Shown here piece after piece: positions 1 through 42,509 of a stretch of DNA of 64,000 nt. Origin of the DNA: Magnolia sinica (lineage: Eukaryota; Streptophyta; Magnoliopsida; Magnoliales; Magnoliaceae); assembly GCF_029962835.1 (NCBI RefSeq), contig NC_080574.1:39375501-39439500 (forward strand), in the 5' to 3' direction. The notes below the pieces were generated by a model. That model worked only from the letters and a program-made list of their open reading frames with translations, was not told the DNA's origin and did no database searches. Every line of letters begins with the position of its first letter. The stretch's first letter is position 1. Made by a program: the position numbers and the translations under genes.

Positions 1-165
1 GATTATGCATTGAATTTTTTATAGTTTGCCCCATTGAATATCTAGCTTGCCCTGCTCATTATGCAGTTTGCCTCGCTCAATTTCATGTTTGTCTTGATCA
101 AATTATAGTTTGTCTTGCTTACGTTGGTAGTTTGGCTTGCACAATTTTCAGTATTTTCCGTTCCA
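1..165 (+). repeat. 21-bp minisatellite array, left side of MULE 1
   Basis: Degenerate units of about 21 bp with the core CTCGCTCAATTTCATG and the linker 'tttgcc'. It continues off the window to the left. It lies just upstream of the first visible exon of the DUF1985 gene, in the same orientation relative to that gene as the array at 37440-39180, and inverted relative to the array at 16985-18235. Confidence 0.75.
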
Positions 166-299
166 GTTCTATCTCCATTTCATATGAAGCTTGTTCAAAT
201 TAATGAAATGCTACATTCTTTTCAACGTAGTCTGATTTTGTCCACAGTGTTTATCTTGTGAATTTTATGTTTGATATGTTTTTTAATTCATCTTTGCAG

Positions 300-3200
300 G
301 CGACGAATATTCTGTCATAATCCCCAACCCAACATGTAGGTGTACACTCACATGGTGGTTTGACAAGGTGAAGGGTGGAGTGGAGAAGCAAGATAGTCGC
401 CTAAATTTGTTTAGGCAATCTCCTTTCTCATTTCTATTGCATGTTACATCCTTTAGATTTTTAGGGGCTCTATTTCACCTTCTTTTTGTAAAATACAAAG
501 GTGATCTACTATTTGAGATCAAAGGGAGGCGATTGCACTTTACCGAGATGGACTTCGCCCTTATTACCGATCTTAAGATTAGAGATCTAACTGTACCGAA
601 GAATCATTGCACTACAAGTACATTAAGAGACAAATACTTCAAAGAATATCCAGTATTAAAGAAGCAACTAATGGAGGTGTTTGAGAGATTAGTTGACACC
701 AATGAGCATGAGGACGTCGTGAAGGTTGCCCTACTTCTAGTTGTGGAGCACTTTCTTAGGGGAACCGAACTGAAAACCATGTGCCACATGGATTATATTT
801 ACCTAGTTGACTCGCTAGATGATTTCTATAGGTATCCCTGGGGTAGTTTGGGATACTATACAATATCACAAGGAATTGAATCTGCTGTTGCTGCATCAAG
901 TTCCCCTCGGTATACTATATGTGGTTGCGTCCTTCCTCTACAAGTAAGAACACCTTTTACTTTGTGTATGTTTTCCCTCTATAGTCAATTATGGATTTTT
1001 AACCTGGTGCAATTTCATTCTAACAGGTATGGGCAGTAGAGATATTACCGGCCCTACAAGACTGTGTTGTTTCGTATGTTCCGCATCAAATTCCACGCTT
1101 CATCAATATCGAGGCTGGAAGGGTTGGAGGTATAACAGAATACATCCTATTTTCAAGGGTAAAGCTATAAGTTTATATATATATACATATCATCATTTAC
1201 TTCGCTTAACTTGACGTATATGCTTTTTTATTTAACATTACTCTTTGTTCCTTTGCAGACAACAGTAGTAATGAAATTAGAACCAACGCTACGAGAATGG
1301 GAAACGGATGCCGTTCGCTCTGTGCGTGACAGTTTCCAGGTGAGATGCTATGGAAAACGAGGTATAATTTCATATCTACCATTGTAAAGTTATCCTTACT
1401 CTTACATATCCATTTATATATTTTTGTAGCTTACTGAGACCCAGGAAGATGATGAGGAGGGTAATGAGATTGATCATGAGGAGGGTGACGAGTCAGATGA
1501 TAGCGATGAGAAAGGCGTGGAGGGAGAGGGACCGAGGGGTGGTGTACTGAATGTTGTTCTTATGGAGGAATTTATTATTGAGAGGGAAGAGTTGAAGAAG
1601 GAGAGTGAGGAATTGAAAAATGAGAGGGACGAATTGAGAAAAGAGAGGGCAGAGATGAGAAGGAAAGAAGCACTGTTTGATAACTGGGAAACGTTACTGA
1701 GGAGGGAGAAGGAGTTGTTCTTTGTGGACAAGGAATGGTTCTTCAAGGACAAAGAAAAGTTAGCGAATGAGATGGAGGAGTTTAATAAGGAGAAGGAACA
1801 TAGTCGTACATAGAGGGGACGTAATGTGATGGAGGAGAAGGGTGAGGAGTTGAGGAAGAGCGTGGAAGTAAATGATATTGAAGATAAAGAACTTGGACTT
1901 GTGGATCTTGATGTGCAATCGTCTAGTAAGGTCAAAGGTAATGTATGGAATGAATCCACTTCTCATGCTGTTTATGAAAGGAGAGCCAAAAGGATACCAA
2001 AGCCGTCATATTACAAGATTTCTCCATACTTGTCCTTGTCTACATTCGATACAACCCCTGGGGCGGACAAGGAATCGTTCTTCAAGGACAATGAAAAGTT
2101 AGCGAATGAGAGGGATGAGTTTAATAAGGAGAAGGAAGGTAGTCCTAAACAGAGGGGGCATTTTGTGATGGAGGAAGGTGAGGAGTTGAGGAATAGAGTG
2201 GAAGTAAATGATACTGAATATAAAGAACTTGAACATGCATCCACTTCTCCTCCCGTTTATGAAAGGAGAACCAAAAGGATACCGAAGCCGTCATATTATA
2301 AGGTTTCTCCATACTTGTCCCTGTCTGCATTCGATACAACCCCTGGGGCGGTTCGTGAACCCGAGCAAGTAACAACTTTTGTTACTTCTCCGATACCATT
2401 TCCTGTACAGATGGATCCTTTCAGGATACTATCCGTACAGGAGGTGAAAGAGGCAGAGGACTGGTATGAAGCAAACAAGGACATGTCAGAGGGAAAATGG
2501 TTCGGAACGATATGGATGAAGGATGCCTGAGTTGATAGCGAGGTAAGCATTACTAATTTATTCTCTGTATGCATCGATTGCCATGTAATTAATTGTTATA
2601 GGAATCTATGACGAAATCGTACTATCCTATTGATTAGGCTATCGACACGTACATCGACTTCCTTGAGAAAAGGCATAACGCCCTCTCAATAACATATCCT
2701 CATAATTGCAAGTTCTATCCTACGTATTTTACGGTAAATGTTTATTACGGCAATCCTTAATCTATTTGAAAATTTTACTTTATTACATGTATTGAACTTT
2801 GATCATGTTTGTAACAGCAAAGCCTCGAGGGGTGTTTATCGGTTTTGATCCCATACCGGGCCTCCAATTCAGTGTTAGAACGGTCGTCGCTAATAGGCCA
2901 GCTGAACACGGCCTAATCAATTGCCAGGCAACGAGATAAACCATACGCTAGAGCGATTTGGTGTTATGAACGGGTAATGCACTCGTCACAGAACATCATC
3001 TCTTACTGTTATAAGTTTTATCATGTTTTGACAAATATATTATTTTGTGAATCATGGACATGTTTATGCGCCAATAAATCATGACAATTCACTTTGGTTT
3101 TTGCTTGTCATCTATCCTAGAGAAAGAGAAATCATTATTGTGGATAGCTTATACACATATCTAACGCCGAAGTTCAAGCATAAGATGAAGAATATGACCG

Positions 3201-3445
3201 ATGCACTCCCCGTTCTCTTCCATGCCACTGGAGACAGTATTGCGCTTGAATGGAAGAAGTGGATCGTCAGATTCGATGAATCTGCACCGAAGCAGGATAA
3301 TGGTTATGACTGCGGCATATTTGTGATGAAATTCATTGACATTTTGTGTAGCGGTCTCACCTTGGAGGGAATAGACATGTAAAAATTCACCTCCAATTGG
3401 AGGAAGTCAATAGCATATGATTGCTTGTCTATTGTCAGGAAGTGA
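300..3445 (+). pseudogene. DUF1985 / coiled-coil / Ulp1-like C48 protease gene of MULE 1
   Basis: Multi-exon gene with GT-AG junctions at about 300-943, 1027-1158, 1259-1339, 1430-2542, 2602-2733, 2818-2973 and roughly 3040-3445. The acceptor before 300 implies an upstream start exon off the window. Exons 1-2 encode a DUF1985-type domain (start GDEYSV, then FRFLGALFHLL, FTEMDFALITDL, MDYIYLVDSLDDFY). Exon 4 is acidic, then a long E/K/R-rich coiled coil. The last exon is an Ulp1-family cysteine protease core: His in APINHDNSLWFLLV, Asp in IIIVDSL, Gln and Cys in PKQDNGYDCGIF. Family members cleave SUMO-like modifiers; what the transposon-borne forms do is unclear. Exon 4 holds a TAG near 1811 and a TGA near 2528 in the otherwise open frame, and exon 6 also reads into a stop, so this copy is decayed. 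Exon 4 contains an internal tandem duplication. No ATG is assigned. Confidence 0.82.
1726..2352 (+). repeat. Internal tandem duplication in the coiled-coil exon
   Basis: Two consecutive copies, about 1726-2067 and 2068-2352, of a segment running from GACAAGGAATGGTTCTTC through the coiled coil to a conserved RRxKRIPKPSYYK motif and FDTTPGA. The second copy lacks an internal stretch. The related gene at 39262-41250 has only one copy, so the duplication is specific to this locus. Confidence 0.85.
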
Positions 3446-3517
3446 TATTTGTGCAGTGCATGGGAGAAAATTTTTCTAAGAATGTATTATTCAGAGGTTT
3501 ACAGTAATCTTGGAGTG

Positions 3518-3663
3518 CTGAAAATTTCCAAGTATGTGCATTTCAGTGTAAGTTCCTTCTCTAATCACGATAACCTTGGGAGGGTTGATCCGAATTCCTC
3601 TCAAGTCTATCGTGATTAGAGAAAGAACTCGCACTAAAATGCATATACTTGGAAATTTTCTAC
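3518..3663. repeat. Hairpin-forming inverted repeat
   Basis: Arms at 3518-3583 and 3597-3663 are reverse complements over about 65 bp at roughly 85 percent identity by eye, separated by a loop of about 13 bp. Each arm contains TCTAATCACGAT (or its complement) and 'atttccaagtat'. It starts about 75 bp after the stop of the protease exon. It could be a small fold-back MITE, a precursor-like hairpin or a replication scar. No gene is implied. Confidence 0.8.
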
Positions 3664-4203
3664 ATACTCACCGGAAGTGCAAGTTTCGATGTATAGCATA
3701 CTCTGTAATTTTAGTGAATGATGAAATGAACTTTATACTGTCCCACAATATTTTCAGTTTGTCTCGATATGCTCATCGATCAAGTACAATGCACATGGAA
3801 CTCGATGTTTGGCAATTGCTCTAGATCAAGTTCAATGTCTCGATATTACACATTGTATGGATTTTATGCACAATGATGCAACCACTGTTGGGCACTTCCT
3901 ACTCTTTTTTACTGCAATGGGGTGATTTTTAAAGGGAGGTCAGAGATGCTTGTGTTTTCTCTACGCCATGTTTGGAAATTATGGGTTCATGCCAAACTGC
4001 AGCAGGGGAAACTGGGTGAATATTATGTGGGGAATATTAAAATTGAAACCTGTATGATCATTTTGCTCATTCTTCCTATGCACCCAAGCTTTGAAATGAT
4101 TTTAAATGTAATCCAAGCTTTCACCTTGGAGTTCAAATCCCTTGGATTTGAAACCCCCCAATTACCATATGGTGCGAAACATATTAGGAGATTTGAAATC
4201 CCC

Positions 4204-4661
4204 TCAATGCTTCTTATAGACACCAACGATCTTTCCTCTACGGCCTGTTGTTTTGGTGTGCTGACCACGAACACGGAGACCCCAGTAGTGCCTCAAACCA
4301 CGATGGTTCCTGATCTTCTTCAGTCGCTCCAAATCATCTCTCAACTTCATATCTAGTGCATTTGAGACAACTTGAGAATACCTCCCATCCTTGTAATCCT
4401 TCTTCCTGTTCAAAAACCAGTCTGAAATTTTGAACTGGCGGGGGTTGGCAACAATCACCATGAGGTTCTCTAGTTCTGTCACAGATAATTCACTAGCCCT
4501 CTTGTTCAAATTCAATCAGCCTTTTTGCATACGATGTTGGCGAAACGCCTCCCGATACCTTTGATGGAGGTCAGAGTGAACATGGTCTTCTGCTTTCCAT
4601 CGACGTTCGTGTTCAGAACACGAAGAATGTGTTGGAAATCTTCGTTCGCGATTAAAGACAT
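4204..4661 (-). pseudogene. RPS18: 40S ribosomal protein S18 (uS13) retrocopy, frameshifted
   Basis: The reading begins at the ATG at 4661-4659 ([17 protein letters not shown]) and ends at 4204 ([12 protein letters not shown], stop). It covers essentially the whole 152-residue cytosolic S18/uS13 protein, including [16 protein letters not shown] and the C-terminal [17 protein letters not shown] block. Compared with the family, one base is missing in the KKAD/VDMNKRA region near 4515, splitting it into two frames. There is no intron, which suggests a processed copy, although no poly(A) tail is visible on its downstream side. It lies inside MULE 1 on the strand opposite to the DUF1985 gene. Whether it was captured by the MULE or inserted later is not decidable from this window. 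Confidence 0.85.
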
Positions 4662-5029
4662 TTTTTCGCCGAGAGGATAGAGCTTTCGCTGGAGCCATGA
4701 ATGCAAAATCGCTAAGAATGGAGAAGACCATCGCATATTCATAGTTAGGATGACCATTAAATGTCCCTTCGCTGCTGCTGCAGAAGAACCACACATCTCA
4801 CGCAACTATGCTTATCATTCCTGCAAAGAAACATTTCCAACTTGAACAATCACAAGCATGCATTCCTATAATTTGGCAATTGTATACGAACCTCTAGATT
4901 TCTTGACACCCAGTACATGTCCCCATTGCTTTCAACAACACATCCAATAGGTCTTAAGTACAAAACATACCTATCAATGCAATGTGCTTATTGGAACGAA
5001 CATTTCGAGCATCATTCAAAGCATGGAAT
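4662..5029. other. Flank of the S18 copy; possible exon remnant
   Basis: No complete gene. On the minus strand there is an acceptor-like 'ttctttgcag' at about 4822-4831, upstream of the S18 copy. About 60 bp further upstream, a short open stretch near 4895-4960 reads PIGCVVESNGDMYWVSRN and ends near a GT. This could be a small captured exon pair, but I do not recognise the protein. Confidence 0.3.
4953..5023 (+). repeat. Left copy of a 70-bp direct repeat flanking the LTR block
   Basis: About 70 bp, including TGGAACGAACATTTCGAGCA, is repeated nearly exactly at 8036-8105. The pair brackets the LTR-like block at 5030-8005. Confidence 0.85.
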
Positions 5030-8005
5030 AGATTAAGCCAAAACACAGATATGATTCAGGGATAAGTGAATAAAGCCAGCGGAAGACTTATAGAAAAATA
5101 TGTGTACAAGTGTAAATCCTTGAAGTACATATACAAACCAGGTCGTATGAAAGTGTTATTTAACAAAACTATAAGTATCAAGTTACATCATTTAAATTCC
5201 CAAAAATAATCCCAGAGATCCCGCGCATCAGACCAAGGCTCGCTAGAACCCATCTGAAAACTGCATAAAAGAGAAGGCAGCCTCATCATCATCCATCTCC
5301 CGCTCTGCCTCAGAAGTCGCATCAACATCTGCAACATCAGAACCTAAGACAGAGTCTGGTGGGTGTTTAACACCGCCCCAGAACGTGGGAGTGAGTGATC
5401 AACTCAGTGGAACAATAAGGCACTGGTTAACATGTTATCAGTTCAATCAAGCAGTAATGATAAAGCAGAACAATTAAATAAATCCTAAGTACTCTTGTTA
5501 ATGCAAGGATGTATGCAATATGATGCGTGCCCTCACGCGTACACCCTCAGCGTCTTCATCTTACGTTACGCATGACATCGCCTCAAAGTGCGCCACATCT
5601 ACAAAGCACATGCAAATGCGGTGCATGGATATGATTACCAAGTTGTTATTAGTCCTTTTCATACAGCAGGATTGGGAAGCTAAGATACCTTCCTCATATC
5701 ACCATCCAAACAGTGATCCATTCTAGGGTCGTCAATCCTAGACATCTCATACGATCATATATTTAAGGTCGTGGCAAAGGGCTCGTCACTAATCAATGCA
5801 CGCCTTTCACACTTTTACTACCACAGTTCGGCTCGTCACCTCCTTGCGGTATTCAGGTATGCTCGAGGTCACTACAAAGGGCTCGTCACCAATCAATGTA
5901 GGCCGACAGCACGAATATAGTGTCCCATACCACCATAATCGGCTCACGAGTTTAGTTGCTCACTGGTCACTACGGGGAGGCTCGTCACCCCAGCGTAGGC
6001 CGACAGCTCGACCACGGTGTCCCATACCACTATGTCTGGCTCATGAGTCTTAGCGGATCAAGGTACCATGGTTATTAGGATTTTACTGGTAAGTTCGGTA
6101 CCCTAGATTCAAGCAGTAGCGTCCATACATGGTGAACATATATCGGATAATTGGGTTACTTGACGAACTCGACTAGCACGAGCGCACATTGAATTGAGTG
6201 ATATAGAGTGCGTAAATACTCCGTGTGGCCAAACCACTGCCGACAACTCTAATACGGCTCGGGTTCGTCTAATACATCCTATGTGGTGAAAGCAATCTCA
6301 GCCACGAACATAGGGTCAATTACCGATTTCCTGGACTAATGCATAGTCCCAAACACATTACACTACTACAGATGTTCATATTAAATGTAAAACAGTAATG
6401 GAACAACAACTTAAATCATGGTACATACGCATCTGAAGAATATCAACTTAACATAAACGTAAGCATAAGTAATGCTTGAATTTAAATAACATGGAATGTA
6501 ACTTGCATAAAGGAAATCATCCACATCAATAGGAGTGTTGAGAATCACTTCTCAACGCCCGCAATTAGTGTAATAAGTTACACTTTAGATCATTCATGCA
6601 TTTCTACAAACACTTAGCATACATGGAACAACATACATGACGTATGTTGAAATACATGCATTTAGACAATTCCTTTTACCAAGGAGTTGTCATACATACA
6701 TCTAGCATACATACATGACAAATAATCATGGCAAACACAAGTGCATATTTTATACGTATACGGTACTTTATACATACACCTAGAATACACAAATCTCAAT
6801 ATAACACATGCATATCAGGAAAGCAACGTAAACACAACATTTGGCATGCGAAATCTCATCCATAACAAGGATAAATCATTCACTGGCATTGAAAGCCTTG
6901 AAAACCATAACCTATATACTTAAAGTCTGCACCTTAAGCAAGGAAAGAAACACCGAACTGATTTAGACGAGTTGTCTTCGTCAACGGCGACAGATTACCC
7001 TAAAACAAGGATAGAAATGAGATACAACAACACCAAGACTATTCTAAGCTCCAACACAGATTAGGGTTAGGTTAACTTACCCCAAAAAGAACTCAAAACT
7101 GTCAGAATAATGATTCAAAGTGAAGGTTCAAAGATGTAGAAGAACAAGAAAGAATCCAAGATGATTCACCAACTTATCTCTCTCACTTTCTCTCTCTTTT
7201 CCACTCTCTTTCCAAGCTAGGGTTAGAGAAAATTCGTATGGAAAAGAGAGCTAGGGTTTAAGGACTATAAATAGGCCTATTTTTTATGAAAATAACCCCA
7301 GGGTCAAGGTATACTTAGGGTATAACCAAAACCCGACTCTCGCGATCTAACGAAGCACTTCTGGTAGGCTTATAACCACGAAAGGTTGGACTTAAGCTCA
7401 CTGACCATGGATCTAGGTCAGGCTGAGTTTTGGTACCGACCGACTCTTCAGATCAGCCGTGGCGGACCACACTCAATTCAACGGTCACGGAATCTCGATC
7501 AGGTCCACAAGCACTAAGATATGCCTGGGCCACCTTCCCTGATCAGAGGGTGAAATTGGGTCAAAATCCAACGGTCAGATTGCTTAAAATCGTCGCACAA
7601 GCGACACGACTCAGATTTCATAAAAACTTATTAAATTCCAACCGTTCTCACACTCTTCACTCCGAGCTCAATCAAATCGACCCAGAACATCAGATGGACT
7701 TGATTTTTGAGGTAATAGTCAAGCCCAACTCGGTGACCGCAACAGCCTAAGATCATCGCCATCGGACTTTCGACGCGGTCCAGTCCGATCCAGATCTTTC
7801 AAAAATTTCCTAGAACAACCTGGATTTAGCGATGGATCCCGGATTTCCGAGTAACGTAGTGCTAACTAATCTACAAGTTTAGAGTCATGCGAGATCGAAT
7901 TTAAAGTGATTGATGCAGATTTCACAAGCAATCAAGTATAGCGCTAATTACCCCAAAAACAACTACTTAAGGAAAGATTAGCACAAAATTTCTAAGGTCG
8001 TTACA
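5030..8005 (-). mobile_element. Old chromovirus-type LTR block, reverse orientation
   Basis: Fossil. It ends at 8005 with TTACA, as the other LTRs here do. In reverse complement it carries the same landmarks as the LTR at 20547-23723: the 'ccactgagttgatcactcac' and 'tgttttaaaacacc' region (here near 5360-5410), the repeated 'gactcatgagcc' / 'tgggacac' section (5880-6050), and the TATA-like promoter region (near 7260). No internal coding sequence is attached, so it behaves as a solo LTR. The TG end on the other side is not clear. About 70 bp of flanking sequence is repeated on both sides instead of a short target duplication. Confidence 0.72.
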
Positions 8006-8035
8006 CTAAACCTAAACCATTACTGACATTTAAAA

Positions 8036-8105
8036 CCTTAAAAATATACCTATCAATGCAATGTGTTTATTGGAACGAACATTTCGAGCATCATTCAAAG
8101 CATTG
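8036..8105 (+). repeat. Right copy of the 70-bp direct repeat
   Basis: Matches 4953-5023 with a few changes. It starts about 30 bp beyond the LTR end at 8005. Confidence 0.85.
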
Positions 8106-8149
8106 CTCAGAAGATCCATCAAACTTTTCTTTTAGGACACCTCCATAAA

Positions 8150-8305
8150 CAAACTAACCCAAACATAAACAAAATAAAAAAGGTACACCAACAAACTAAC
8201 CCAAACATAAACAAAATAAAAAAGGTACACCAACAAACTAACCCAAACATAAACAAAACAAAAAAGGTACACCAACAAACTAACCCAAACATAAACAAAA
8301 AAAAT
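8150..8305 (+). repeat. 42-bp tandem repeat, about four copies
   Basis: Near-identical copies of a 42-bp unit containing ACTAACCCAAACATAAAC and an A-rich tail with 'ggtacacc'. The unit is a multiple of three, so frames stay open on both strands (for example NPNINKIKKVHQQT). I regard these as translation artefacts of the repeat. The copies are almost identical, which suggests recent expansion. Confidence 0.9.
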
Positions 8306-8389
8306 ACACCAACAAAAAGGTACATGAATAAATTCCAAAAAAAATACACCAAAAAAATAGGTAAAAAATATAGCAAAATTTGCAAACGT

Positions 8390-9293
8390 CGATATGATCT
8401 ACATATCATTGATTTTATCGACATAAGTCGTAGATAATATCAACACATTGTCGATAATATCGAATATGGATGACAGCAGTCCAACAAGCTTTGCTGAAAT
8501 TGCACTGTAAATCGATATATCGACAACCTGTAGATATATCGATAGCAGATGACATGTCGATATATCGACATATTGTGGATAATCTCGAATTATGTCCTCA
8601 TTTGTCTAGTGACCAAACTTGAAAATTCCATATTTAATCGATATATCAACCACCTATCGATATATCGATAGCAGATGACATGTCGATATATCGACATCTT
8701 GTGGATAATATCGAATCATGTCCTCATTTGTCTAGCGACGAAACCCAAAAATTTCATATTTAATCGATATATCGACAACATGTCGACATATCGATGGAAC
8801 GATATATCGACATCTTGTGGATAATATTGAATTATGTCCTCATTTGTCCAGCGACCAAACACAAAAATTATATATTTAATCGATATATCGAGAATTTATA
8901 TGACAGACGTTACGATATATCGACAATATGTCGATATATCTACAAATTTACCAACCAAAAATGTACGGTCGATGTTATCGACATATCATGGATATGATAT
9001 ATGTAAGTTCTAGATATAATCGACACATCACAGATATAATCGACATAAGTTGTCGATAATATCGACGACGGGTCGATAATATCGAATCTGGAGTGCAAAT
9101 GTGTAGCGAACTTTTGATCATTTTCATAATATGTCGATATATCGACAACGTGTCGATATATCTATTATAGTTTGGCGATATATCGACTAGTGGTCGATAA
9201 TATCGATTACAAAACTGAACTCTCTAGTAGTTTGTCCGTTGAAATTCCGATATTGTCGATATATCGACAACTTGTCGATATTATCGACGATGA
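8390..9293. repeat. Array of TCGATATATCGA palindromes with a higher-order unit of about 125 bp
   Basis: About 900 bp studded with the self-complementary motif TCGATATATCGA and close variants. In 8506-8890 a longer unit repeats three to four times. Each unit starts at 'taatcgatatatc', contains two further palindromes, and closes with 'tgtcctcatttgtctagcgac'; starts are near 8508, 8634, 8760 and 8877. The rest is more irregular. No gene is seen. The DNA could extrude cruciforms or bind a dimeric protein; both are inference. Confidence 0.85.
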
Positions 9294-10746
9294 TCGGTTT
9301 TGAAGAAAAAAAAATAATAGCATTAACTGCTTTCACCAACCTTTATTTCTCTCAAATTCCTTTTTTAGAATCCTTCTTCCAAAACATTTGCTCTACTTCA
9401 TCTCAACTGGATTTCTCCACATTAGCAACGGGGCTCTTCGAGAGATTTCTTCTTTGACAATCTCGGTATGTGTCTTCATTGCAATCGATATGAAATGTTG
9501 TGTTTGTGTTCTACAGGTTCTTGAAGCACTGATGATGGATAAGTTCTTGATCTTCTTGTTAAACATTACTGATTTGGGCAACATGCCATACAATATATAT
9601 GATGGTCATGTCCCCACCATTTTTGAAATGGTGGTGAAGTTTCATTGGAGTCTATCTCATTCATCATTCCTATATAGAGATGCCCCGGTTATAAATCTAT
9701 GAGCCTATGATGATGGTCTTTGGTTTAAGAATAGAGGAATGTGGTCTAACCTGCGTTTGTGATTGTAAGTTATGTGAAGAAAATCCTGAAATAAAGGAAA
9801 AAAAATCATTGCTGCTGTTGGGTGTGTTTGGTTGGACCAAATATCTGAAATTTGTGTGAACTGTGATACCGACGCTATCAAGATTGCAAACACTAATCAT
9901 ACGATTTGGGAAGCAATGACTTGACTATGTGTCCCCGGATTACCTTAATTGCCTTGGCCGACAAATGAACAGTTTGGCAACAGTAGGGGCACAGATCTTC
10001 ATTGGGCTGATAGGATGTGAATGTTGAATATGTACCATTCTTTTATTCTAACGATCTGTTTTTCTCGTATTTGTTATGTCAATCTGCATGCATATGTTGA
10101 CATAGAAACATTTTCTCTTTATTTTCCCACCGTTGTCTTCTTTTGTTACAATTTGAATGTATTGAATGATATTGTTTACTTGAATTGTTTCTGCTTTTTC
10201 ATGTTCCAAGTAATATGGGTGGTGAGTGACCCATTAGTACTGTCGATCACTGGCTGTGGGAGCAGGTGGCCCATAAACATCATTGATTCATTGATTGAGC
10301 TTGCCACCGGCCAAAAGTTCAAAGGGACTAATTTGGTTGAAGGGTGTGATGGACGATAGTATTTGACTGTTGCAAGGATCCATGTGAAGCAATGACGGGA
10401 GTGTTTTGTAGATATGTCAATCTCGTGGACGGGGGATTAGCCATACCTTCCTTGTCATTGAGGATTCTTTCCCTCCACTGTGATGTGTTTTCCTTCCTTT
10501 AATGAGAAATTTCTCAATTGAAAAGAAAATCTTTTAATGTTTCTTTTGTAAGAATATGGTTGTGACCGAATTTCATGCATATGAACCACTTGCTGATTTT
10601 GAGTAAATTTTGAACAAAGGGAACATTCTCACACATAATATCAACAGATTTCCTTTAGATGGTTTTATCACCTTAATTACCTTAATTGACTTATTTTATC
10701 ATATCTCTTAATGTTTGTAACAGGCACTATCATCGCAGCATTCATA
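9294..10746. other. Gene-poor stretch before the plant-transposon-domain gene
   Basis: No recognisable protein. Several junctions look like splice sites: a GT after 'gacaatctcg' near 9465, an acceptor 'ttctacag' near 9518, and 'tttgtaacag' near 10724 just before the ATG used downstream. These could be 5' untranslated exons of the 10747 gene. Confidence 0.4.
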
Positions 10747-12050
10747 ATGCCTAAGGATAAAGGAAAAAAGGCTATGGTTGGAGAGTCATCCAGGGGAGAT
10801 CGTACAAAACTCCGTACAAAACGTACATCGGAACGGACTTCCCCGACCGAATTGCCGGTTAGGCGACCTCGTACTCAAAGGAGTACTCCAATTCAGGATC
10901 CCCCTCCACCAATACAACCAGAACAATTGATCCCAGAGGTTCCTCCTCCCCCTGCGAATATGTACGACAAATATCGCGTCCGAAAAATTGTATATGAAAA
11001 AAAGGTCGATCGAGCATGCATCCAGCAATTTGGGATTTCACAAATTTTGGAGAAAGTTGGGTGGAGTAACCTGTTAGATTTTGGAGGGATAGTTAGAAAT
11101 GAGCAAATGATCATATTTCTATCATACTGTCACTCGCCAGTAATGCACCCTGCTTCATTTCGGGTGACCATTGGAGAGACCACCACCACCATTAATACTG
11201 GGGTAGTTGCACAACTTTTAGAGATTCCAGCCACAGGTCAAGGCTTAACGAATCACAACATTGATGACCCAGCTGTGCGGATAGAAATGATGAAGTATGT
11301 TTGTAATAGACAGAATGTTTCGTGGCATAAGGGTAATGCACTGAGAGCGACGCACTTGGAAGACAAGTACAAGATGCTACACAGTATCTTCACCTGGAAT
11401 GTATATCTGAGGGACTCGAACAAGTCTGACATTACTTCGTATATGTTAGATATTCTATATAGCATATGTCATGGTTTCCTCTGTGTCTGCCCACCATCAT
11501 TACTCAAATAATTGCCGACAGCATAGCGACCACCAGAAGGGATGACATTCCATTCCCACACCTATTATGCTTACTCTCCCGTCATGTTGGCCTGATGCCC
11601 ACCACTGACCAACCCAGACCCGTGAAAATGTTTACACAAGACAACATTAAGCGCATGAAACAGGGGTTGAAAGGGGCATCAACATCAGTAAGGCGCAGTG
11701 AAGATTTTATGGGAGAGACAGAAGCAGAGGCAGTGGAGACAGATGCCGCAGAGACAGACGTGGCTGAGACAGAGACAGTTGACACCAACCATCCTACGAA
11801 GGGAGAGCAGCGTGAGGTGCCAGGACCCTCATATGGTCATACCAGTCGAAGGATGCCATACTGCAACTGCAGGGCATATATTGTTAGGCACATGGATGAG
11901 CAGGATAGACGACTGACACGACTGGAGCGATTTTTTGAGGCCATTCAGAATAGTATCGACTGGGTCGAGCGTAAAATTGACAACCTTATTGCCATGATCA
12001 CCTACCGGCGTGATGATGTCGCTCCACCGGTTGCCGGTCCATCCAGCTAG
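10747..12050 (+). pseudogene. Putative plant transposon protein domain gene, broken
   Basis: Start chosen at the ATG at 10747 (MPKDKGKKAMVGESSRGDR), 23 bases after an acceptor-like CAG. A basic, proline-rich N terminus leads to a globular region (RKIVYEKKVDRACIQQFG, ILEKVGWSNLL, TTTINTGVVAQLLEIPATG, LHSIFTWNVYLR). This resembles the family annotated as putative plant transposon protein domain, whose function is unknown. It is followed by a low-complexity T/E/A tract and a C-terminal helix (DEQDRRLTRLERFFEAIQN) ending at 12050. The coding sequence is in two overlapping frames with about one break. A related protein sits inside the chromovirus at about 24500-25800, so this copy may also come from a retroelement. 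Its host element is uncertain. Confidence 0.6.
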
Positions 12051-13703
12051 ACTGTATTTACTCATGTCTGTTGGCTTGTGCATCAAGTATCTTTTTGGGA
12101 TGCCAAGCCTATTGGATATTATTGTCGAACTGTTTCTTTAAATAGTGGCGTTAATTTTACTTTGACTGATGCAGGGGACTATGAATTTGGTGCCCAAACT
12201 TGGGGTACTTATTTTGATTACAATATTTAGTGTTATGATGAAAAAAGAACTCTTATATCAATCTGCCCATTCGACAAAACTGAAAAACAAACTCAACCCA
12301 GCCTTAAGTTTACTACAGCTTGCCATCTAAATTCTTTATTTGGTGAACCAATGAATTTGTTGTCTATGGCAATTTTATATGTTTTCTCATGATATGTGAA
12401 TTTGCTGCCTTTGATGCCATTTGGATGCTTATTATCTTCTGGCTCTGATTGATTCCAGTCAGGTTTCAGATAGCTAGTAATATCCATAATGAAGTGCACA
12501 TATGATTTCTTCCCTGAATTTGGTAAAGATTCAACTTGTTCGTTTCCCTTACATATTATATAGTTTTATTGTACAGAGAGAAATTTCAAATTTGAATCTT
12601 ATCATAATAAGATTACTTGATACATGCTATATCCCCTATTCGTGCTCTCGATCTCTTATCAACAGTGACAAATTACCCATCCAAGAACCGTACTAACGAA
12701 TCAGTTATAGGTTTTCTTGCTTTCGTGGTCTAGGAATGCCGATTATAGCATTTTATTCTCCATTAGTCAGTGGGCATATTTTCTCCTAGGCGGGGGGCGG
12801 CATGGGGTGAAAACAAAAATGAAGGCTTGTCAAACTGGTAGAGGAGAAATTCGAGATGAGTTATGGGGGAATTGATCCTTCTATCTGTTATAAGCAATTC
12901 ATTGAAGTAGTAATTTGGTATCCTACTATATATCAAAGGCGTTTTCTTTAAAGCCATGTCATATGTTCCTTCCTGATTATCTATACTCCACAGTAGCAAA
13001 TGATTTCAGATAATCTTTATGTTAATTGTGCATTGTAATGCAATAATATGCATAAAGATTCTGTACTGAATGATGCAATGTGGCATAGAGAGATGTTATT
13101 ATGTTGTGCTTTGTGAAGTTCTATTAGGTGTTGCTCCACCACCACACCCATCGCTAACATGTGTGCTGATTAGGACCGTTGATCTGGTTGGATGCCTTGC
13201 TAATGGGGCACTCGTGAGCTAATTTGAATCTCTTTGTCTTTAGGTATGAAGGAGGTCCAACAGTGACTAGGTTAGTGCCCAAACATGGGGTACTTATTTT
13301 GAATCTGTCAGTATGTTAGATAGTTTACATTTCTCTTTTGTTATAAATGCAATTTTCCAGTTGCTTCTCAATGTGAAATTGTGAAGTTGGATTCGTTCTT
13401 GAAAACTTTTAGAAGAATTTTTTTTTTTCCAAAGTTGAGCTAGTGATCAAATCTGCCTTTGATAGCAATGGGTTAAGTGGTAAGATTCCTTCAACATGTT
13501 CTAACTTAAGAAACACGAAGATCAACTAGGAGCAATACCTACCTTTCAATTGTATGTATCATACAAAGTATGAGGAGACACACTCACAGGTAAAGCATAT
13601 GCATGATTTCTTCTTCATTGCTGATGATAAATTTTTTTAGATGGGTGGCTCAACCTATTCAGTTGTTTTTTCCGTAAATATTTCAATGTGGACTGTGACT
13701 TAG
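12051..13703. other. Non-coding stretch between the transposon-domain gene and helicase exons
   Basis: No gene seen. A short phrase, 'gtgcccaaac.tggggtacttattttga', occurs near 12191 and again near 13275. The segment 13516-13571 (GATCAACTAGGAGCAATA to CATACAAAGTA) recurs at 14226-14279, so the helicase exons are bracketed by a direct repeat of about 55 bp. Confidence 0.55.
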
Positions 13704-14120
13704 GTCAGACAGACACATTTAGTTGCCCCTCTTGACACGCATTTTTTAATACTATATAGCATTCTCACAAAGCATATATCAGAGGATATTGACTATAAGG
13801 TATGCATCATTACTTGGTCACAGTTACCGAAATCAAATTTACTCCTCTTGCCAAGATTCTTCGATCCGCAACCTCTGGTTTATACCAGTTGAAGTTAATT
13901 GCAGGTTCTTGTCTTTTGTACTACTGCAATGGTCACAAGACTGGTTGCTAAGCTTCTTTTCGAGTTGAACCTGAAGGTGCAGGAGATCCATTCTAGAAAG
14001 CTACAGAGCTATAGAACCAGGGTTGGAGATGAGTTCCGGAAGTCAAAAGGTCTTATTCTTGTGACTTTTGATGTATCTGCACGTGGTGTTGATTATCTAG
14101 ATGTCACCCTTATTATGCAG
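13704..14120 (+). pseudogene. DEAD-box RNA helicase gene fragment, two exons with intron
   Basis: Exon 13704-13799 encodes VRQTHLVAPLDTHF, then LYSILTKHISEDIDYK, followed by GT. Exon 13905-14120 follows 'aattgcag' and encodes VLVFCTTAMVTRLVAKLL, EIHSRKLQSYRTRVGDEFR, and motif V as TFDVSARGVDY, followed by GT. This is the start of the helicase C domain of plant DEAD-box helicases of the RH26/RH31 type. Both exons are open and spliced in phase, but the DEAD domain and motif VI are absent, so the piece cannot make a helicase. Retention of the intron indicates capture at the DNA level, as in Pack-MULEs. It lies between the two gene modules of MULE 1. Confidence 0.82.
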
Positions 14121-14599
14121 GTAATATAGTGGATAATTTCTTTTTACAATACAAGAGGGCATTTTGGAATGCATGTATAGATAGGGCTGACAGTTGGTGC
14201 ATTTTTACACGATATGTTATACATGAAGATCAACTAGGAGCAATATATAACTTTCAACTATATGTATCATACAAAGTACATAAATTACATAAATTACACG
14301 ATATGCTATACACCGGGTATCGAAAACTTGCACGACCGACGATTATGCCCGGACCGGTGACTATGCCGGGTTTGTTTGCATCGCCTACACTTTACTGTTT
14401 TCGATTCCTCTCCACGCGATGAAATTCTAAGCTTTTTGGATCTTCCAGCTGACCTCCTCGGTCTTGGGGGTTTAATCTACACACAATACTCCTTCATCCC
14501 CACTGAAATTTCTCACTCGCTATTGTCGCGTACTGAATACACCGATTCACTATACGTGGCCAGGTAATTATGCGCCGTGTAGAATGGGGAGCAATATAA
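14121..14599. other. Non-coding stretch after helicase fragment
   Basis: Contains the right copy (14226-14279) of the direct repeat bracketing the helicase exons. I see no supported gene. Confidence 0.5.
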
Positions 14600-16724
14600 T
14601 TAGTGATCCAGATTGTAGTTTATGCAGGCTGATAGGACATGCATGCAAGGGTACCCCTTCACGCCAAACTCACGACATGTACATGAAAACTCACTGAGCT
14701 TCACCGTATCGTTATAATTTCCAACGACATAATACTCATCTCGAGAAATAGCATGGCAGCGAACATCTTGCGCCTTCTGTACGATATCCTTTAACTGTTT
14801 CTCCGCCCATGGTGTCAATGGACCCACAACTGATTCCGTAAATTCTCGTCTCTTGTAAAACAATTCTTGTATCTTCAATATTACAGCCTCTATCAATTTT
14901 GTAACGGGGTAATCGCGTGCTTCTTTGAAAAGGGCATTAACGCACTCAGAAATGTTCGTCGTGACCAAGTTGAATCTTCTTCCTGGAAAGTGCGAAGATG
15001 CCCATCTCTCGTACCCAATTTCTGTCAGCCATGCATGTACTGGGGGATTGGCCATTTCGATATCATGCATTATTTTTTCAAATTCGGCCCTCCTGCAAGT
15101 CTTCACAGCCATCTAGTAATACATCTCCAACGACTTGTCCTTAAAAGTGTCCACCAAGTTTCTGTAGATGTGGTACGCACAATACCCATGGATTGCACGC
15201 GGGAAGACTTAAGGAACCTCTTTCATTAAACCTTTATATCGGTCGAATATAATGACAAAACTCTCCACAGACCCTAACACATTGTTAAGGTGGGTAAGGA
15301 ACCAGTTCCAACTACTGTTGTTCTCTGATTCCCCGATGTCAAACGCAAGTGGAAATATATGATTGGCCCCATCTAAGGCCGTGGCGATGAATAGCACACC
15401 CTTGTATTTGCCCTTTAAGTGTGTCCCGTCAATAGCCAATACTCTCCACAATGATTTCTGAAAACTTCGAATGCATTGTTCGAGGGCTAGAAAACATCTC
15501 TCGAACCTCCAAGTCTATTGGTTTACAGAAACGACAGTAACTGTCCCTGGGTTGGCCCTCCTCAACTCATGCAAATACAAAGGGAGTTGATTATAGGAGT
15601 CTTCGTAAGACCCCATCACGTGATTAATTGCAAGCTCCTTAGCTTTCCATGCCTTCCAATAACTGATACGAATATTATATTTCTCTTGTATGGCGGAGAT
15701 AATGTCATGTGGCCTCAACCCTAGGTGTTGTTCAATACGGCTAATAACCAGATCACACACTAGCTGACTGCTGGCTTGCAGGTTATCGCTCTTCATCCAT
15801 GCCATGCCGCACATGTGTTTTGATGTGTAAGTCCGTATTTTGAACATACCCATATCACTCACCCGGGATGCATGAACCCTCTATTCGCATATATCTTCGA
15901 AGCACACCACAGTGAATCTGCTCGAATTTGAGTATAGTACTCTATACTGAAAATTATTCCGAATTACAAATTGACTCAAAACATACTGGCACCGACTCGT
16001 CCTTAAACGTTTGCCCTTCAGCTATATCAGTCGGTTCACATAACAAATCAGTATATTCCTGCATTTTTGCATTGGCGAGTGCATCATCATCAAATGGGGC
16101 GAGAACTTAACGAGTCATGAGGTTTGATGTTTCGGGGAGGTCTCGAAGCGGAACGACGCTTACACACACAGATGGGATGGTAGATGATGATGGCAGATCT
16201 ACTGTTGATGCTAATGGCGATGTCTTGTATTCATAATTACTGTTAATGTCAACTGCACCACTGACTTGCCTAGTTACGAAGTTTACTATTTGCGGCGGCT
16301 CAGGTAATTGATCATTGCTTACTACCACTTGTAATGGAGAAGGATTATATTTGAATTCCATGCCATACTCCTCAGCCACACTGTCTACATATGTTGTGGT
16401 ATTGATGTGGTGGATTGTTTCGATGACTAACGGAATGAATTTTTCCGAATGCTCAAACTGGTAAGACAAGAACTCTTTGACGTCATTGTCGTCTTCGATT
16501 TCGATTTGAGGCATTGATTCATTAGTGCAAGGATTTAATACTTTCATCCTGATATCACAATCTTCTGGTCTGCTCTTAATAATCTTGTAAATTCTAGATC
16601 GAAGCTCCTCGTACGTAGTCTCGAGACGTAGCGTCATTTGTTTTGATGTTCCACCCGTGTACGAGTATCGCTTGTTTTCAAATTCTAACTCCCCGCCAAA
16701 TGAGCACATGATTCTTGCAGCCAT
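14600..16724 (-). pseudogene. mudrA-like: mudrA-type MULE transposase, decayed but nearly full length
   Basis: The start is taken at the ATG at 16724-16722 (MAARIMCSFGGELEFENKR), just after an acceptor-like 'ggttttcag'. In order: a PB1-like N terminus (GGTSKQMTLRLETTYEELR); a MuDR DNA-binding region (RVSDMGMFKIRTY, HMCGMAW); the DDE transposase domain with first Asp in LAIDGTHLKGKYKGV near 15430, second Asp in IIFDRYKGL, and Glu in NISECVNALFKEAR; and a C-terminal SWIM zinc finger (CTCREFGVKGYPCMH). One frame runs through most of the roughly 700 codons, interrupted by about five nonsense codons (including near 16109, 15870, 15515, 15207 and 15113) and a frameshift near 15990. Several stops are TAG where Trp or Gln is expected, as C-to-T decay would give. 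It reads away from the right TIR, as mudrA does. Confidence 0.87.
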
Positions 16725-16984
16725 TATCTGAAAACCAATACAATGACACATTATCAGTGAATCGTAAATCAATGGAACCATGCCATATGACAAAACTTGG
16801 TTAAATAATGAAGGACCTTCGTCGTTAACAAATGAATTCAAGTGGTGCTTGTTTATTTTTGTGACGTTATCTATCATGTCATTGAGCGAGGTAATTTTAT
16901 GACGTTATCTATCATGCCTTTGAGCGAGGGAGGCATTATCAGTTTGAGCGAAGCACACATGAAATTCAGTAGGGCAACCTGAAA

Positions 16985-18235
16985 ATTGAGCAGGTCAAAA
17001 TAAAAATTCAGCGGGAGTAACCTGAAATTGAGCGGGGCAAACTAGGAAATAAGCGGGGTAATCATAAATTTGAGCGGGGCAAAAATATTGAGCAGGGCAA
17101 ACTAGGAAATGAGCGGGCCAAGCATGAAATTGAGCGGAGCAAATTAGGAAATGAGCAGGGTAAACATGAAATTGAGCGGGGCAAACTAGGAAATGAGCGG
17201 GCAAGCATGAAATTGAGTAGGGCAAACTAGGAAATAAGCGGGGCAAGCATGAAATTGAGCATGACAAACTAGGAAATGAGCAGGGCAAGCATGGAATTGA
17301 GCGGGCCAAACTAGGAAATGAGCGGAGTAAGCATGAAATTCAGCGGGAAAATCCGACACTTTTGCGCGACAAGCATGAAATTGAATGGTGCAAACTGAAA
17401 ATTGAGCGGGACAAACTATAAATTCAGCTATGCAACCAAGCATTAAATCGAGAGTGCATAGCATGATATTGAGCTGGGCATACGATAAATCGAGCGAGCA
17501 TATCATGATATTGATGTGGGCAAACAATATTTCGAGCGAGCATAACGTGATATTGAGTTGGCCAAATATTTCTTCGAGCAAGCATAGCATGATATTGAGC
17601 AGGGCAAACATTAAATTGAGCGAGCATTGCATGGATATTGAACGGGCAAACTATAAATTGAGTGAGCATAGGATAATATTGAGCTAGGCAAACAGTAGAT
17701 TGAGCAATCCTAGCATTATATTTATCGAGGTAAACATTAAATTGACCTTATCTACCATGAAATTAAGATGGGCAAACATTAAATTGAGCGATCCTAGCAT
17801 GAAATTTATTATGGTAAACATTAAATTGACCTTATCTACCATGAAATTAAGTTGGGCAAACATTAATTGAGTGATCCTAGTACGAAATTTATCACGGCAA
17901 ACATTAAATTGACCTTATATACCATGAAATTAAGCTGGGCAAACATTAAATTGAGCGATCCTAGTATGATATTTATGAGCCAAACATTTAATTGACCTTA
18001 TCTACCATGAAATTAAGCTGGCCAAACATTAAATTGAGCGATCCTAGCATGAAATTGAGCAGGGTAAACATGGAATTCAGCAAGCGTAACATCAGATCAA
18101 GTGAGCCCCAACATAGAATTGAGTGAGCTTCAAATTGAATTGTGCGAGTTTGACATGGATTCAATCAATCAACACATAAACTTAACTAAGCCTAACGCAT
18201 GAAATTGACTACGCCTAACACATGGAATTGACCAA
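16985..18235 (-). repeat. 21-bp minisatellite array, right side of MULE 1
   Basis: About 1.25 kb. On the minus strand the unit core is GCTCAATTTCATG with 'tttgccc' or 'cttgccc' linkers; on the plus strand it looks like 'gaaattgagcggggcaaactagg'. In 17040-17330 the units alternate as 42-bp dimers. In 17690-18060 four units form an 84-86-bp higher-order repeat ('gcgatcctagcatgaaattt', then 'ttgaccttatctaccatgaa'). The array lies upstream of the transposase start, between it and the TIR, and is inverted relative to the array at 1-165. Confidence 0.92.
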
Positions 18236-18584
18236 ACTTCGCATGTAATGCCATTGTACGAGTGTAGCTTTTTTTTTCAAGATCTATACCTCTAACTGCC
18301 CCAGTAAAGAGGTGTTTTGGAGTGAGGGAATATTTTGAAACTTTTCAAGGAGATGCAACCAGTTCGTTGGATTTCATGTAACCCTGGCCAAGATGAAATA
18401 TGGAAAATGTAGAATAACGATGTCTAGATGGATATCTAGATGCTTCACAGAGATTTCAGTCAGGAAAATGACAAAAAAAAACCCTTCGTACTTCAGTTCT
18501 TAGAGAGCGCAGGGGAAGCACCTGTTTTTTTCATTAAGGGGAGTGAAAGCAACGCTGAAAAGCAGCAACAGTGAAAAGAGTATG

Positions 18585-18713
18585 CAAAAAGGAGGGGTAT
18601 TTTCGTCCTAAAATTCGTAATCCGCACGTGCAGGTCTAAGTTGCAAAAGAAGGTTTGTCTTCTTCCATAAAACCAGCTGGCTAAAAGGTGGGGTCCACAG
18701 TCCTAAATTTCTC
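18585..18713 (-). repeat. Right terminal inverted repeat of MULE 1
   Basis: Aligns with the right TIR of MULE 2: 'ggaggggta.tttcgtcct', then 'ccgcacgtgc.ggtctaagtt', 'cttccataaaa', and 'ggctaaaaggt', ending in TTTCTC at 18713. The following nine bases (CTTGCTAAA) would be the target duplication, but the left end needed to test this is outside the window. Confidence 0.82.
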
Positions 18714-20541
18714 CTTGCTAAATCGCTCTAATAAAAAAAATGCTCCAGTGGTTCTTAGAGCACTATAAGTTATAGTGCTCCTATTTGCATTAGGACGATT
18801 ATACAGTTCAATCCACTGATCTAGACTCTTCATTAGGTGGGATTTCATGGGTTTTTGTGCAAACATCACACCAATGTAACAAATATGAACCATTGATCAA
18901 ATGCTCTTTAATATGGAGGGTCAAGATCATTCACACAAAGATAAGTCTAATTAACAACTTGACCCATCTATTTGTTAGGGCCATCATGGATTGCTTATGA
19001 TTCTACATAATCACTTTTGTCAGGTAATTGTAATCAATTCGTACAATACATGGCTTTGAAAAGGGATGGTTGTAGAAAATTATGCCAAATCCAAGATGGA
19101 CTGGAGCATCCAATTAGTACAATTTTTGTATGATAGCTTGTGAAATGTGTACCAGACTTAAAGGACCATTCAGATTGATCCATTGGACTGTCCAAGTGAA
19201 CCAATGCAACTAGTAGCGCCATAACTTATGATGATCTGAAAGTAATAAAGCATTTATCTTGACAATGGGGTTTTTGGTCCACTTTGTGAAGTGGCCATGC
19301 CACGAATTCATATGTACCAGACTTAAGGATTTATATCATTGAATTCGCTATTTTGTGGAGGATGAAAATGTCATTTTGTCATATTTACGCCTTGTATGGT
19401 GAGCTCTTATCTCATAAAGAGAATGGTTATTTTAAAAAGGACATGTGCTCCACTCAAAATTAAAATTCAGCTCACCTCTTGGTTGCTTTGATTCGTTCAT
19501 TTTAATTGGACAATTGTGAACTGACAGAAGAGTTTTTTTAGTTCTATGTTTTAAGTTATATGTGGCACACAACTACACTAACGATGTGTATTAATTATGA
19601 ACTGTTTTTCCTATGTGGTTTATCTGTGATAAGTTTTGCCCCCTACATGTAGACGAGATGGATTTGCTTGAAGACAACCCAGTGGGCCCCACATAAGTGG
19701 AAATTCACACGTGGTTTAATGAGATTACCATTGTTGTGATGCTAAAGTTATGCGAGGCTACAGAATGAAGGCTGTCTTAAAGGGAGGTGATTACGACCAA
19801 ATAAAAATTTTCATCTTTTAATACATAATTACTTACTTAAGCTAAGACGCAATTAAGCTAAGCAAGAAAATTAACTCTAAAGCTTCCAAATCAATAGATG
19901 GTTCAATCACATAGATTACAAATGATATGCCAATTAAGCAACTAGTGTATAAACATTGTTATGAGGAAAGTTGAACTAACCTAACGTATGAGACACGTGG
20001 CAAGGGACCATCAGAGCAGATTCTCTGAACTACTGAAGTGCTTACTACTAGGGAAGTTGAGTCGAGCAAAGATACCCAGTGGTCGAGCTAAGTTAGACAA
20101 TCAAGCTCAGTGATAAGGCTTATCGACAGGCCTCGATGACAGATGCTAACCTCAACGCATATGCACCTCAACCACAGATGCTAACCTCGTCGGATATCAA
20201 CCTCGACCTCGGATACCGACCTTGAGCCAAGGATAGAAGTATCCAAAGAGAATCTCATGCCATATACAGGCAGGATTACTCAGTAAGATCATAGCCGAAG
20301 GTCGTGTGAATCAAAACATAATCGGAGAAAAACTCAAGAATAGATTTTAACTTTAATATGATCCCTCCAACAATCTCATAGATCTACTTGGCATCGGAGG
20401 GTCCCTGGCCACAACCGACACTCCCAATATCCTCAAGTTCTCTATTAAAGTGTATGTACCCAACAACTCATAGGAGGTGGAACAGAATTGACCAGATTTA
20501 GGCAATAACAAACATGATAGTGTACATGTGTGTGTGGGATG
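18714..20541. other. Intergenic flank between MULE 1 and the chromovirus
   Basis: No gene seen. It contains dispersed-repeat phrases common in this genome (near 19040-19330). A section rich in 'cctcgac' repeats at about 19980-20240 may be the eroded end of another LTR element. Confidence 0.4.
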
Positions 20542-21386: not shown

Positions 21387-21423
<37 letters not shown>

Positions 21424-23723: not shown

Positions 23724-23726
23724 AGT

Positions 23727-23738
23727 TGGTATCAGATC
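23727..23738 (+). other. Primer binding site (initiator tRNA-Met)
   Basis: TGGTATCAGATC, three bases after the LTR end, matches the complement of the plant initiator tRNA-Met 3' end in 11 of 12 positions as I recall it. Confidence 0.85.
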
Positions 23739-30700: not shown

Positions 30701-30722
30701 ATTTTCTTTAAGAGGGGTAGAT

Positions 30723-32307: not shown

Positions 32308-32312
32308 TGCTA

Positions 32313-36423: not shown

Positions 36424-36550
36424 GAGAAAATGACCACTGTAGACAAAACCTTTTATCCAGTGGTTTTTATGAAGGAATACAAACTTATGTTACCAACTTA
36501 GACTAGCACGTGCGGACAACAAATTTGAGGACAAAACTACCCCTCCTTTT
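36424..36550 (+). repeat. Left TIR of MULE 2
   Basis: GAGAAAATGACCACTGTA at the tip, then 'ccttttatccagtgg', 'gaaggaatacaaactta', 'agactagcacgtgcggac' and 'ctacccctccttttcac'. It matches the complement of 44180-44306 at about 90 percent by eye. Confidence 0.93.
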
Positions 36551-39180: not shown

Positions 39181-39261
39181 CAATTATGTTTACTTTTTTG
39201 CGTTATGATTCTTTAAGTAGTGAAATTTGCTTTAAATATATTTTTCATTACATGTTTGTAG

Positions 39262-42475: not shown

Positions 42476-42509
42476 TTGAGCCTGATCACTGGCCCGCAAC
42501 GTACCTTGG

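Follow-up and report, generated by a model that had tools for sequence, protein, structure and literature searches.

Mutator-like elements of Magnolia sinica with terminal inverted repeats, a DUF1985-Ulp1 gene convergent with the transposase, and lineage-specific 21-bp arrays

MuDR carries a convergent gene pair, mudrA and mudrB, between terminal inverted repeats (TIRs) and has a 9-bp target-site duplication; to our knowledge, mudrB encodes neither a DUF1985 nor an Ulp1 domain. Anti-silencing of the VANC type, whose beginnings have been assigned to eudicots, clearly exemplifies a transposon that counters silencing by its own host through sequence-specific proteins. Two helical turns reportedly matter for VANC action, according to work by Sasaki et al. 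in 2022 (EMBO J). As described in the available parts of Hosaka et al. 2017 (PMC5735166), VANC proteins contain DUF1985 and tandem peptide motifs, their binding targets are arrays of a short motif in one orientation, located in introns of VANC21 and VANB21 and upstream of VANA21, and through their action methylation is lost across the element. The name KIU denotes VANC genes that include an Ulp1 domain, and Ulp1 capture in non-TIR Mutator-like elements (MULEs) has been dated to the monocot-eudicot separation, going by the accessible portion of a 2026 review (PMC13317346). Here we analyze 64 kb of Magnolia sinica DNA (C2:39375501-39439500, referred to as the window), which holds the right part of one MULE, MULE1, and a complete relative, MULE2, and compare both with related loci in the same genome.

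Our preferred reading, with a probability of roughly three in four, is that MULE1 is a defunct, nested member of a large M. sinica family of TIR-bearing MULEs in which a VANC/KIU-type gene acts on 21-bp arrays against silencing. Behind it stand the anatomy of the elements, the co-occurrence and orientation of their two genes, exact ends, selection, the placement and near-constant period of the arrays, and an array motif that follows the DUF1985 lineage.

Anatomy, pairing and selection

MULE1 spans 46,935 bp, from C2:39347279 (window position -28221) to window position 18713, and window positions 1-18713 hold only its right 40%. The left TIR predicted by that annotation begins 28 kb left of the window and matches the right TIR at 91.4% identity across 140 bp, and the nine bases preceding it are exactly CTTGCTAAA, the same as the right-end duplication. 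Within the first 20 kb left of the window no TIR was found, and within the first 10 kb no duplication; the TIR was reached in the third 10 kb. A conserved exon 1 starts 284 bases inside the left end. The surplus length of MULE1 lies mostly in intron 1 and between its two genes, and we infer that nested insertions account for much of it.

Pfam searches place DUF1985 (PF09331, E = 3.9e-14) and Peptidase_C48/Ulp1 (PF02902, E = 8.3e-20) in the second gene, and MULE (PF10551, E = 2.9e-11) and SWIM (E = 6.8e-7) in the transposase, all four where they had been annotated; the N terminus of the transposase gives a weak PB1-like match below the cut-off. As the protease gene lies on the plus strand and the transposase on the minus strand, the two genes are convergent. 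In window coordinates, the features of MULE1 are as follows.

About -345 to -220 (L009 9657-9780), left of the window: further piece of the left 21-bp array
17-135, plus strand: final segment of the left 21-bp array, in intron 1 of the DUF1985-Ulp1 gene
300-943, plus strand: exon 2, DUF1985 domain (Pfam); acceptor and donor common to MULE2
1027-1170, plus strand: predicted exon 3, read from the sequence; 3' border approximate, acceptor common to MULE2
1259-1339, plus strand: predicted exon 4, likewise; both splice sites common to MULE2
1430-2530, plus strand: exon 5, with an acidic stretch, a heptad coiled coil and an internally duplicated peptide
3032-3382, plus strand: catalytic exon of Ulp1/Peptidase_C48 (Pfam, alignment)
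3900-14500, borders approximate: probably mostly inserted DNA between the two genes
4977-7802: relative of the long terminal repeat (LTR)-type element of the window
8.1-9.3 kb: satellite-like repeats between the genes
10690-12050: weak Transposase_32-like open reading frame (ORF), below the Pfam cut-off
14600-16724, minus strand: mudrA-type transposase in several broken frames, with MULE domain and SWIM finger
16943-18240, minus strand: 21-bp array at the right side, upstream of the transposase and with its motif on the same strand
18514-18713, minus strand: right TIR region, outer 140 bp compared with the left TIR
18714-18722: 9-bp target-site duplication CTTGCTAAA, with an exact counterpart at the left end

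This copy is dead: the coiled-coil exon contains in-frame stops (1811-1813 and 2528-2530), the transposase is scattered across several frames, and the catalytic His of Ulp1 reads Leu. The Asp, Gln and Cys of MULE1 Ulp1 are retained, and nine other copies have His in 9/9 and Asp, Gln and Cys in 8/9 each; positions were assigned by alignment to yeast Ulp1, using what we take to be its triad. Exon 5 of MULE1 has heptad repeats and a duplication spaced 339 bp, and heptads are also present in E, a compact copy described below (only MULE1 and E were inspected). The 21-bp coding repeats of this exon (1580-1653) were considered as a form of the noncoding 21-bp arrays and rejected, their period being that of the coiled-coil heptad, seven codons. 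Directly 3' of the Ulp1 exon lies a 64-bp inverted repeat (window 3520-3660), both arms of which recur with a longer spacer at loci L019 and L027, with a lone arm at two places in L011. A scan of viral contigs with the DUF1985 protein gave 15 pattern matches, none of them confirmed.

The complete relative within the window, MULE2, has these features.

36424-44306, plus strand: MULE2
36424-36554 and 44176-44306: TIRs, 131 bp, 93% identity
36715-36748, plus strand: putative exon 1, starting Met-Val, followed by a GT donor
37504-39182, plus strand: intron 1 array, 21-bp unit
39262-39905, plus strand: DUF1985 exon, with a stop close to its 3' end
41253-41850, plus strand: second array, after the coiled-coil exon, where the Ulp1 part would come

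Its 9-bp duplication (ACATCCTAC/ACATCCGAC) agrees at 8/9 positions. DUF1985 (Pfam E = 5.6e-11) and coiled-coil exons are present, and tblastn with MULE1 pieces (E up to 0.01) found no relative of Ulp1 or the transposase. Between its TIRs is an 18S rRNA fragment (RF01960, 174.5 bits, E = 1.6e-48; window 42003-42338), apparently captured host rDNA. A GT donor follows exon 1 at the matching place in MULE2, E, L011, L019, L027 and MULE1.

E is a 15.3-kb copy at C14:78446232-78461562 (L032+L033: 2232-17562), with identical, low-complexity 9-bp duplications (TTTCTTTTT), TIRs whose outer 136 bp are 96% identical, and an additional 541-bp inverted pair at 81%. One strand carries DUF1985, coiled-coil and Ulp1 exons (Pfam E = 6.5e-15 for DUF1985 and 4.8e-20 for Ulp1), the other a transposase in a 734-residue open frame, with DBD_Tnp_Mut, MULE, Transposase_mut and SWIM all above their cut-offs. 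MULE domain, TIRs and 9-bp duplications, exact in MULE1 and E and 8/9 in MULE2, identify these as Mutator-like elements.

How regularly the two genes travel together was read from the best 150 of 819 DUF1985, 882 C48 and 1,055 transposase candidates in the genome, such that all counts are lower bounds and a partner missing from a list may still be present in the genome; at least 150 DUF1985 matches exceed the Pfam cut-off. The transposase query was a 170-residue piece of the MULE1 transposase, as PF10551 itself retrieved mostly higher-scoring MULE lineages and the MULE1 transposase was not among its best 150. A DUF1985 or C48 match lies within 25 kb of 66 of the best 150 transposase relatives (MULE1 included), and all 66 are convergent, with orientation counted from the nearest such match; 84 have none, and chance would give about 1.2 in 150. 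At 40 kb, there are 70 convergent, 1 tandem and 79 without a partner, and at 25 kb 23 relatives have both DUF1985 and C48 in convergent orientation. Among the best 150 DUF1985 matches, 60, including that of MULE1, are followed within 15 kb by C48 on the same strand, at a spacing of 1.84-2.20 kb in 59 pairs and 7.7 kb in one; in one further match the nearest C48 lies upstream with unchanged strand, an opposite-strand C48 is nearest to none, and 89 are without a listed C48. We also drew 40 DUF1985 loci at random (MULE1 among them) and examined the first 10, scoring exon presence by tblastn with MULE1 pieces at E up to 1e-4: Ulp1 lies downstream in 8/10 and a transposase within 15 kb in 4/10, convergent in 4/4. 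At L025, DUF1985 is just 31% identical and the layout is unchanged. Two DUF1985-Ulp1 units at L017/L018 stand face to face within 20 kb, with inverted arrays that share one motif.

Both genes are under constraint. For the DUF1985 exon of MULE1 against that of MULE2 (213 codons), omega is 0.30 (bootstrap 0.20 to 0.46), as compared to 1.02 and 2.2 in shifted frames. Across loci, the ratio of nonsynonymous to synonymous substitution (dN/dS) has a median of 0.31 for DUF1985 (below 1 in 151/151 pairs), 0.27 for Ulp1 (20/20) and 0.19 to 0.49 for pieces of the transposase (16/16), the pairs being those retained at ≥60 codons and dS 0.05 to 1.2 and not independent of one another. These values below 1 in either gene mark the protease gene as a standing second component rather than random cargo; the first-pass annotation had proposed this and had called for just such a dN/dS comparison and for co-occurrence in other elements, and both bear it out. 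Of the best 150 transposase matches, 18 lie in open frames that are ≥700 residues long and are themselves free of stops; because of these long frames, some copies may be recent.

The 21-bp arrays

All 16 exact matches to GCTCAATTTC in the 64 kb fall within the arrays of MULE1 and MULE2, each on the strand of the neighboring gene, although this word was picked after the arrays had been seen. A matrix of the MULE2 unit, anchored with the same word, finds at score 10 four sites (plus strand) in the left array of MULE1, 28 (minus strand) in the right array, and one in what remains of the window once MULE2 is excluded; lowering the score to 8 gives 4, 32 and 8.

A wider comparison used 21 loci: 10 random loci, 8 top-scoring loci (about 1.5 kb of flank each), MULE1, MULE2, and E, picked for compactness. 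Within 2.6 kb upstream of DUF1985, or 1.5 kb for the eight top-scoring loci, arrays of at least 90 bp are present in 21/21 and of at least 250 bp in 17/21, whereas 3/18 and 0/18 control tiles (2.6 kb of flanking DNA) reach these lengths. A Met-Val exon ending in the common GT donor precedes the arrays in 6/13 long loci (E, L011, L019, L027, MULE2 and MULE1), which, by homology and phase, would place the arrays in intron 1. After the coding exons, 10/13 long loci have an array of at least 90 bp, the exceptions being L021, L029 (89 bp) and MULE1. Upstream of the transposase, such an array is found in 4/6 loci with transposase pieces (E, L015, L025 and MULE1); that of L011 measures 43 bp, and in L023 this side lies beyond the examined DNA. 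The three arrays of E occupy 10-21%, 45-52% and 80-93% of its length.

The best array period is 21 in 20/21 loci and 23 in the most diverged one. The word itself varies: there are GCTCAATTTC-like, TTCACGGTCA-like and further forms, in five or more motif classes by eye. Cosine similarity of array 6-mers follows DUF1985 identity over the 21 loci (rho = 0.81; 0 of 5,000 permutations as high), with a mean of 0.53 above 75% identity, 0.21 at 60 to 75%, 0.10 at 45 to 60% and 0.02 below. As array and DUF1985 are physically linked, part of this correlation comes from common descent. Descent alone fits poorly, because different sites in one element agree more (mean 0.51, n = 17) than the same site between lineages below 60% identity (0.08, n = 114). 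Strand relative to the genes agrees in 15/17 within-element comparisons, and in L023 the preference is nearly even (0.31 versus 0.27).

L027 (C4:40979440-40989439) combines a group-A DUF1985, 82 to 86% identical to those of MULE1 and E and 65% to that of MULE2, with a left TIR that is 91 to 92% like MULE2 and 78% like MULE1; it is possibly a recombinant. More 21-bp arrays, with another word (GGTCAATTTCATG...), lie at window 55397-61090, where no coding region was recognized, and are perhaps remnants of another motif class; the MULE2 matrix has no match at score 10 in the arrays at 54-64 kb.

The strongest competitor, though in our view improbable, holds that the arrays are subterminal repeats bound by the transposase and that the DUF1985-Ulp1 gene has another role, such as the integration proposed for mudrB. 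Two of the three arrays do lie near the ends, mutually inverted, and the transposase carries DNA-binding domains. The third array, however, sits mid-element in the complete E, which argues against transposase binding as the sole function, the second MULE2 array follows the coiled-coil exon, and upstream of four unrelated MULE transposases an array of 90 bp was found in 0/4 cases. Somewhat less credible still is that the arrays are mere minisatellites of replication slippage, which track the lineage through descent and are bound by no partner. Linked sequences do diverge jointly, and comparable arrays occur elsewhere, as in the three control tiles of at least 90 bp, but a period near-constant over dissimilar motifs, the greater likeness of sites within an element than between lineages, and the strand agreement do not sit well with slippage. 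It is very improbable that the Ulp1 and DUF1985 sequences were captured from the host and do nothing for the element: MULEs often capture genes, as the rRNA fragment of MULE2 illustrates, grapevine data were interpreted, in the accessible part of PMC2528002, as repeated ULP capture or frequent loss, and the MULE1 copy is itself broken, but selection and fixed architecture largely contradict capture, with order, orientation and spacing constant in 59/60 DUF1985-C48 pairs and a single orientation at 66 transposase loci (among the matches listed), dN/dS below 1 in all retained pairs, and the catalytic His in 9/9 other copies.

Proposed action and points against it

Under the anti-silencing reading, the family would comprise two convergent genes, a mudrA-type transposase (DBD_Tnp_Mut, MULE and SWIM) and a VANC/KIU-type gene whose predicted product combines DUF1985, a coiled coil and an Ulp1 protease domain. 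The DUF1985 protein would bind the 21-bp arrays that belong to its lineage, which lie within the first intron of the gene that encodes it, between the two genes, and upstream of the transposase. A unit spacing of two helical turns would align these sites along a single face of the helix. Once bound, the protein would reverse methylation and silencing across the whole element, upon which both genes could be expressed and the element could move. The Ulp1 domain would probably strip SUMO or a SUMO-like tag locally from silencing factors, and array-bearing copies with gene losses, such as MULE2, may rely on trans-acting proteins of their own motif class. DNA binding by DUF1985, methylation loss and the protease role are proposed by analogy with the described systems.

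Several results weigh against this reading. The arrays are also expected if the transposase binds them, and the dependence of array and DUF1985 similarity on shared descent, noted above, reduces what their correlation can say. Among the sampled DUF1985 loci, 2/10 are without Ulp1 and 6/10 without a transposase within 15 kb; the exon 1 pattern was not found in the examined DNA of 7/13 long loci; the array upstream of the transposase reaches 90 bp in 4/6 loci with transposase pieces; and in MULE1 the 3 kb that follow Ulp1 contain no array. At L025, the array that lies upstream of the transposase is reversed and accounts for both of the 2/17 strand exceptions, and the L027 array is weakly like both the A and B motifs (0.09 to 0.25). 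AlphaFold2 models of the two DUF1985 sequences of the window reach a predicted local distance difference test score (pLDDT) of 36, too poor to use. Finally, the TIRs are good here, unlike those of many VANDALs.

Elsewhere in the window, positions 20800-32310 hold an LTR-retrotransposon-like element with long direct repeats 89 to 91% identical, of which the segment at 4977-7802 within MULE1 is a diverged, reverse-oriented relative. At 61354-63466, an inverted pair of about 152 bp (84% identity, starting GAGAGGGGTTA) measures 2.1 kb end to end and looks like a short nonautonomous element. ORFs at 45413-53274 resemble, by eye only, a glutamate-receptor-like gene (minus strand) and a small X8-type protein (plus strand).

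Comparison with described systems

Strong TIRs and VANC-type genes can thus coexist in one element, which bears on the link between TIR decay and VANC suggested in the accessible part of PMC10398659. The magnoliid genome can serve as an outgroup and, at the same time, as a natural collection of paired proteins and motifs, given its at least 150 DUF1985 matches, long open frames, five or more motif classes and near-constant period, and the age of the system, the change of its specificity and the role of the protease become directly testable. A literature search returned nothing on Ulp1 in magnoliid transposable elements and, among the matches listed, no paper beyond the review on VANC helical periodicity, eudicot origin or antisilencing in this system.

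A bolder proposal is offered tentatively, at somewhat less than even confidence: that the DUF1985-Ulp1-array system was complete in TIR-bearing MULEs before the magnoliid-eudicot split, that selection keeps the two-turn (21-bp) spacing and not the motif, so that protein and motif can diverge into numerous private codes within one genome, and that Ulp1 is the catalytic arm. In the M. sinica genome paper (PMC10999834), magnolias form the sister group of eudicots and Ceratophyllales together, and monocots fall outside; if so, a system older than the magnoliid-eudicot split would be the simplest inference. Horizontal transfer is a possible alternative source of the magnoliid system.

With MuDR, the Magnolia elements share two convergent genes between TIRs and a 9-bp duplication, and the convergence on which the first-pass annotation based its likeness to mudrA and mudrB stands; the model itself gives way to VANA/VANC, which fits better. 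The same annotation had suspected a distinct lineage in the link to DUF1985, a suggestion overtaken by the literature, as DUF1985 is already described in VANC proteins (PMC5735166) and Kaonashi/KIU is the name for VANC genes that bear Ulp1 (PMC13317346), going by the parts of both sources available to us. ULP-bearing MULEs of grapevine, melon and rice likewise hold Ulp1 inside MULEs, some with TIRs; in those, however, both orientations occur without monophyly, and the available sections mention no DUF1985 or arrays (PMC2528002). Kaonashi (KI) MULEs with KIU resemble the Magnolia elements in carrying an Ulp1 gene in reverse to mudrA (PMC2528002, PMC13317346), but they are described in these excerpts as non-TIR elements with three genes and with conservation stated for the eudicot clade, whereas the Magnolia elements have TIRs and two recognized genes.

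The closest likeness is to VANDAL21/Hiun of Arabidopsis thaliana, which, in the excerpts available, has a mudrA-type transposase, a DUF1985 gene with tandem peptide motifs, and dense, lineage-specific same-strand arrays both within second-gene introns and upstream of the transposase. VANDAL21 differs in its degenerate TIRs and the extra gene VANB, whereas the Magnolia elements have TIRs of 131 to 140 bp at 91 to 96% identity, two recognized genes, an Ulp1 domain and a magnoliid host. Absent or degenerate TIRs are typical of the VANDAL clade, not defining, and are not seen in MULE1 (91.4% over 140 bp), MULE2 (93% over 131 bp) or E (96% over 136 bp). As the VANDAL group has TIRs of 46-174 bp, some of them in non-Arabidopsis members, according to the accessible text of PMC6446971, TIRs are no bar to VANDAL kinship. 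DUF1985, a C-terminal Ulp1 domain, a gene opposite a mudrA-type transposase, lineage-specific noncoding arrays and tandem peptide motifs, all features of the VANC/KIU type, are found in the Magnolia elements. VANA/VANC is the better model than mudrA/mudrB, and the arrays point there; by analogy, we read the Magnolia elements as VANC/KIU-type anti-silencing MULEs with TIRs.

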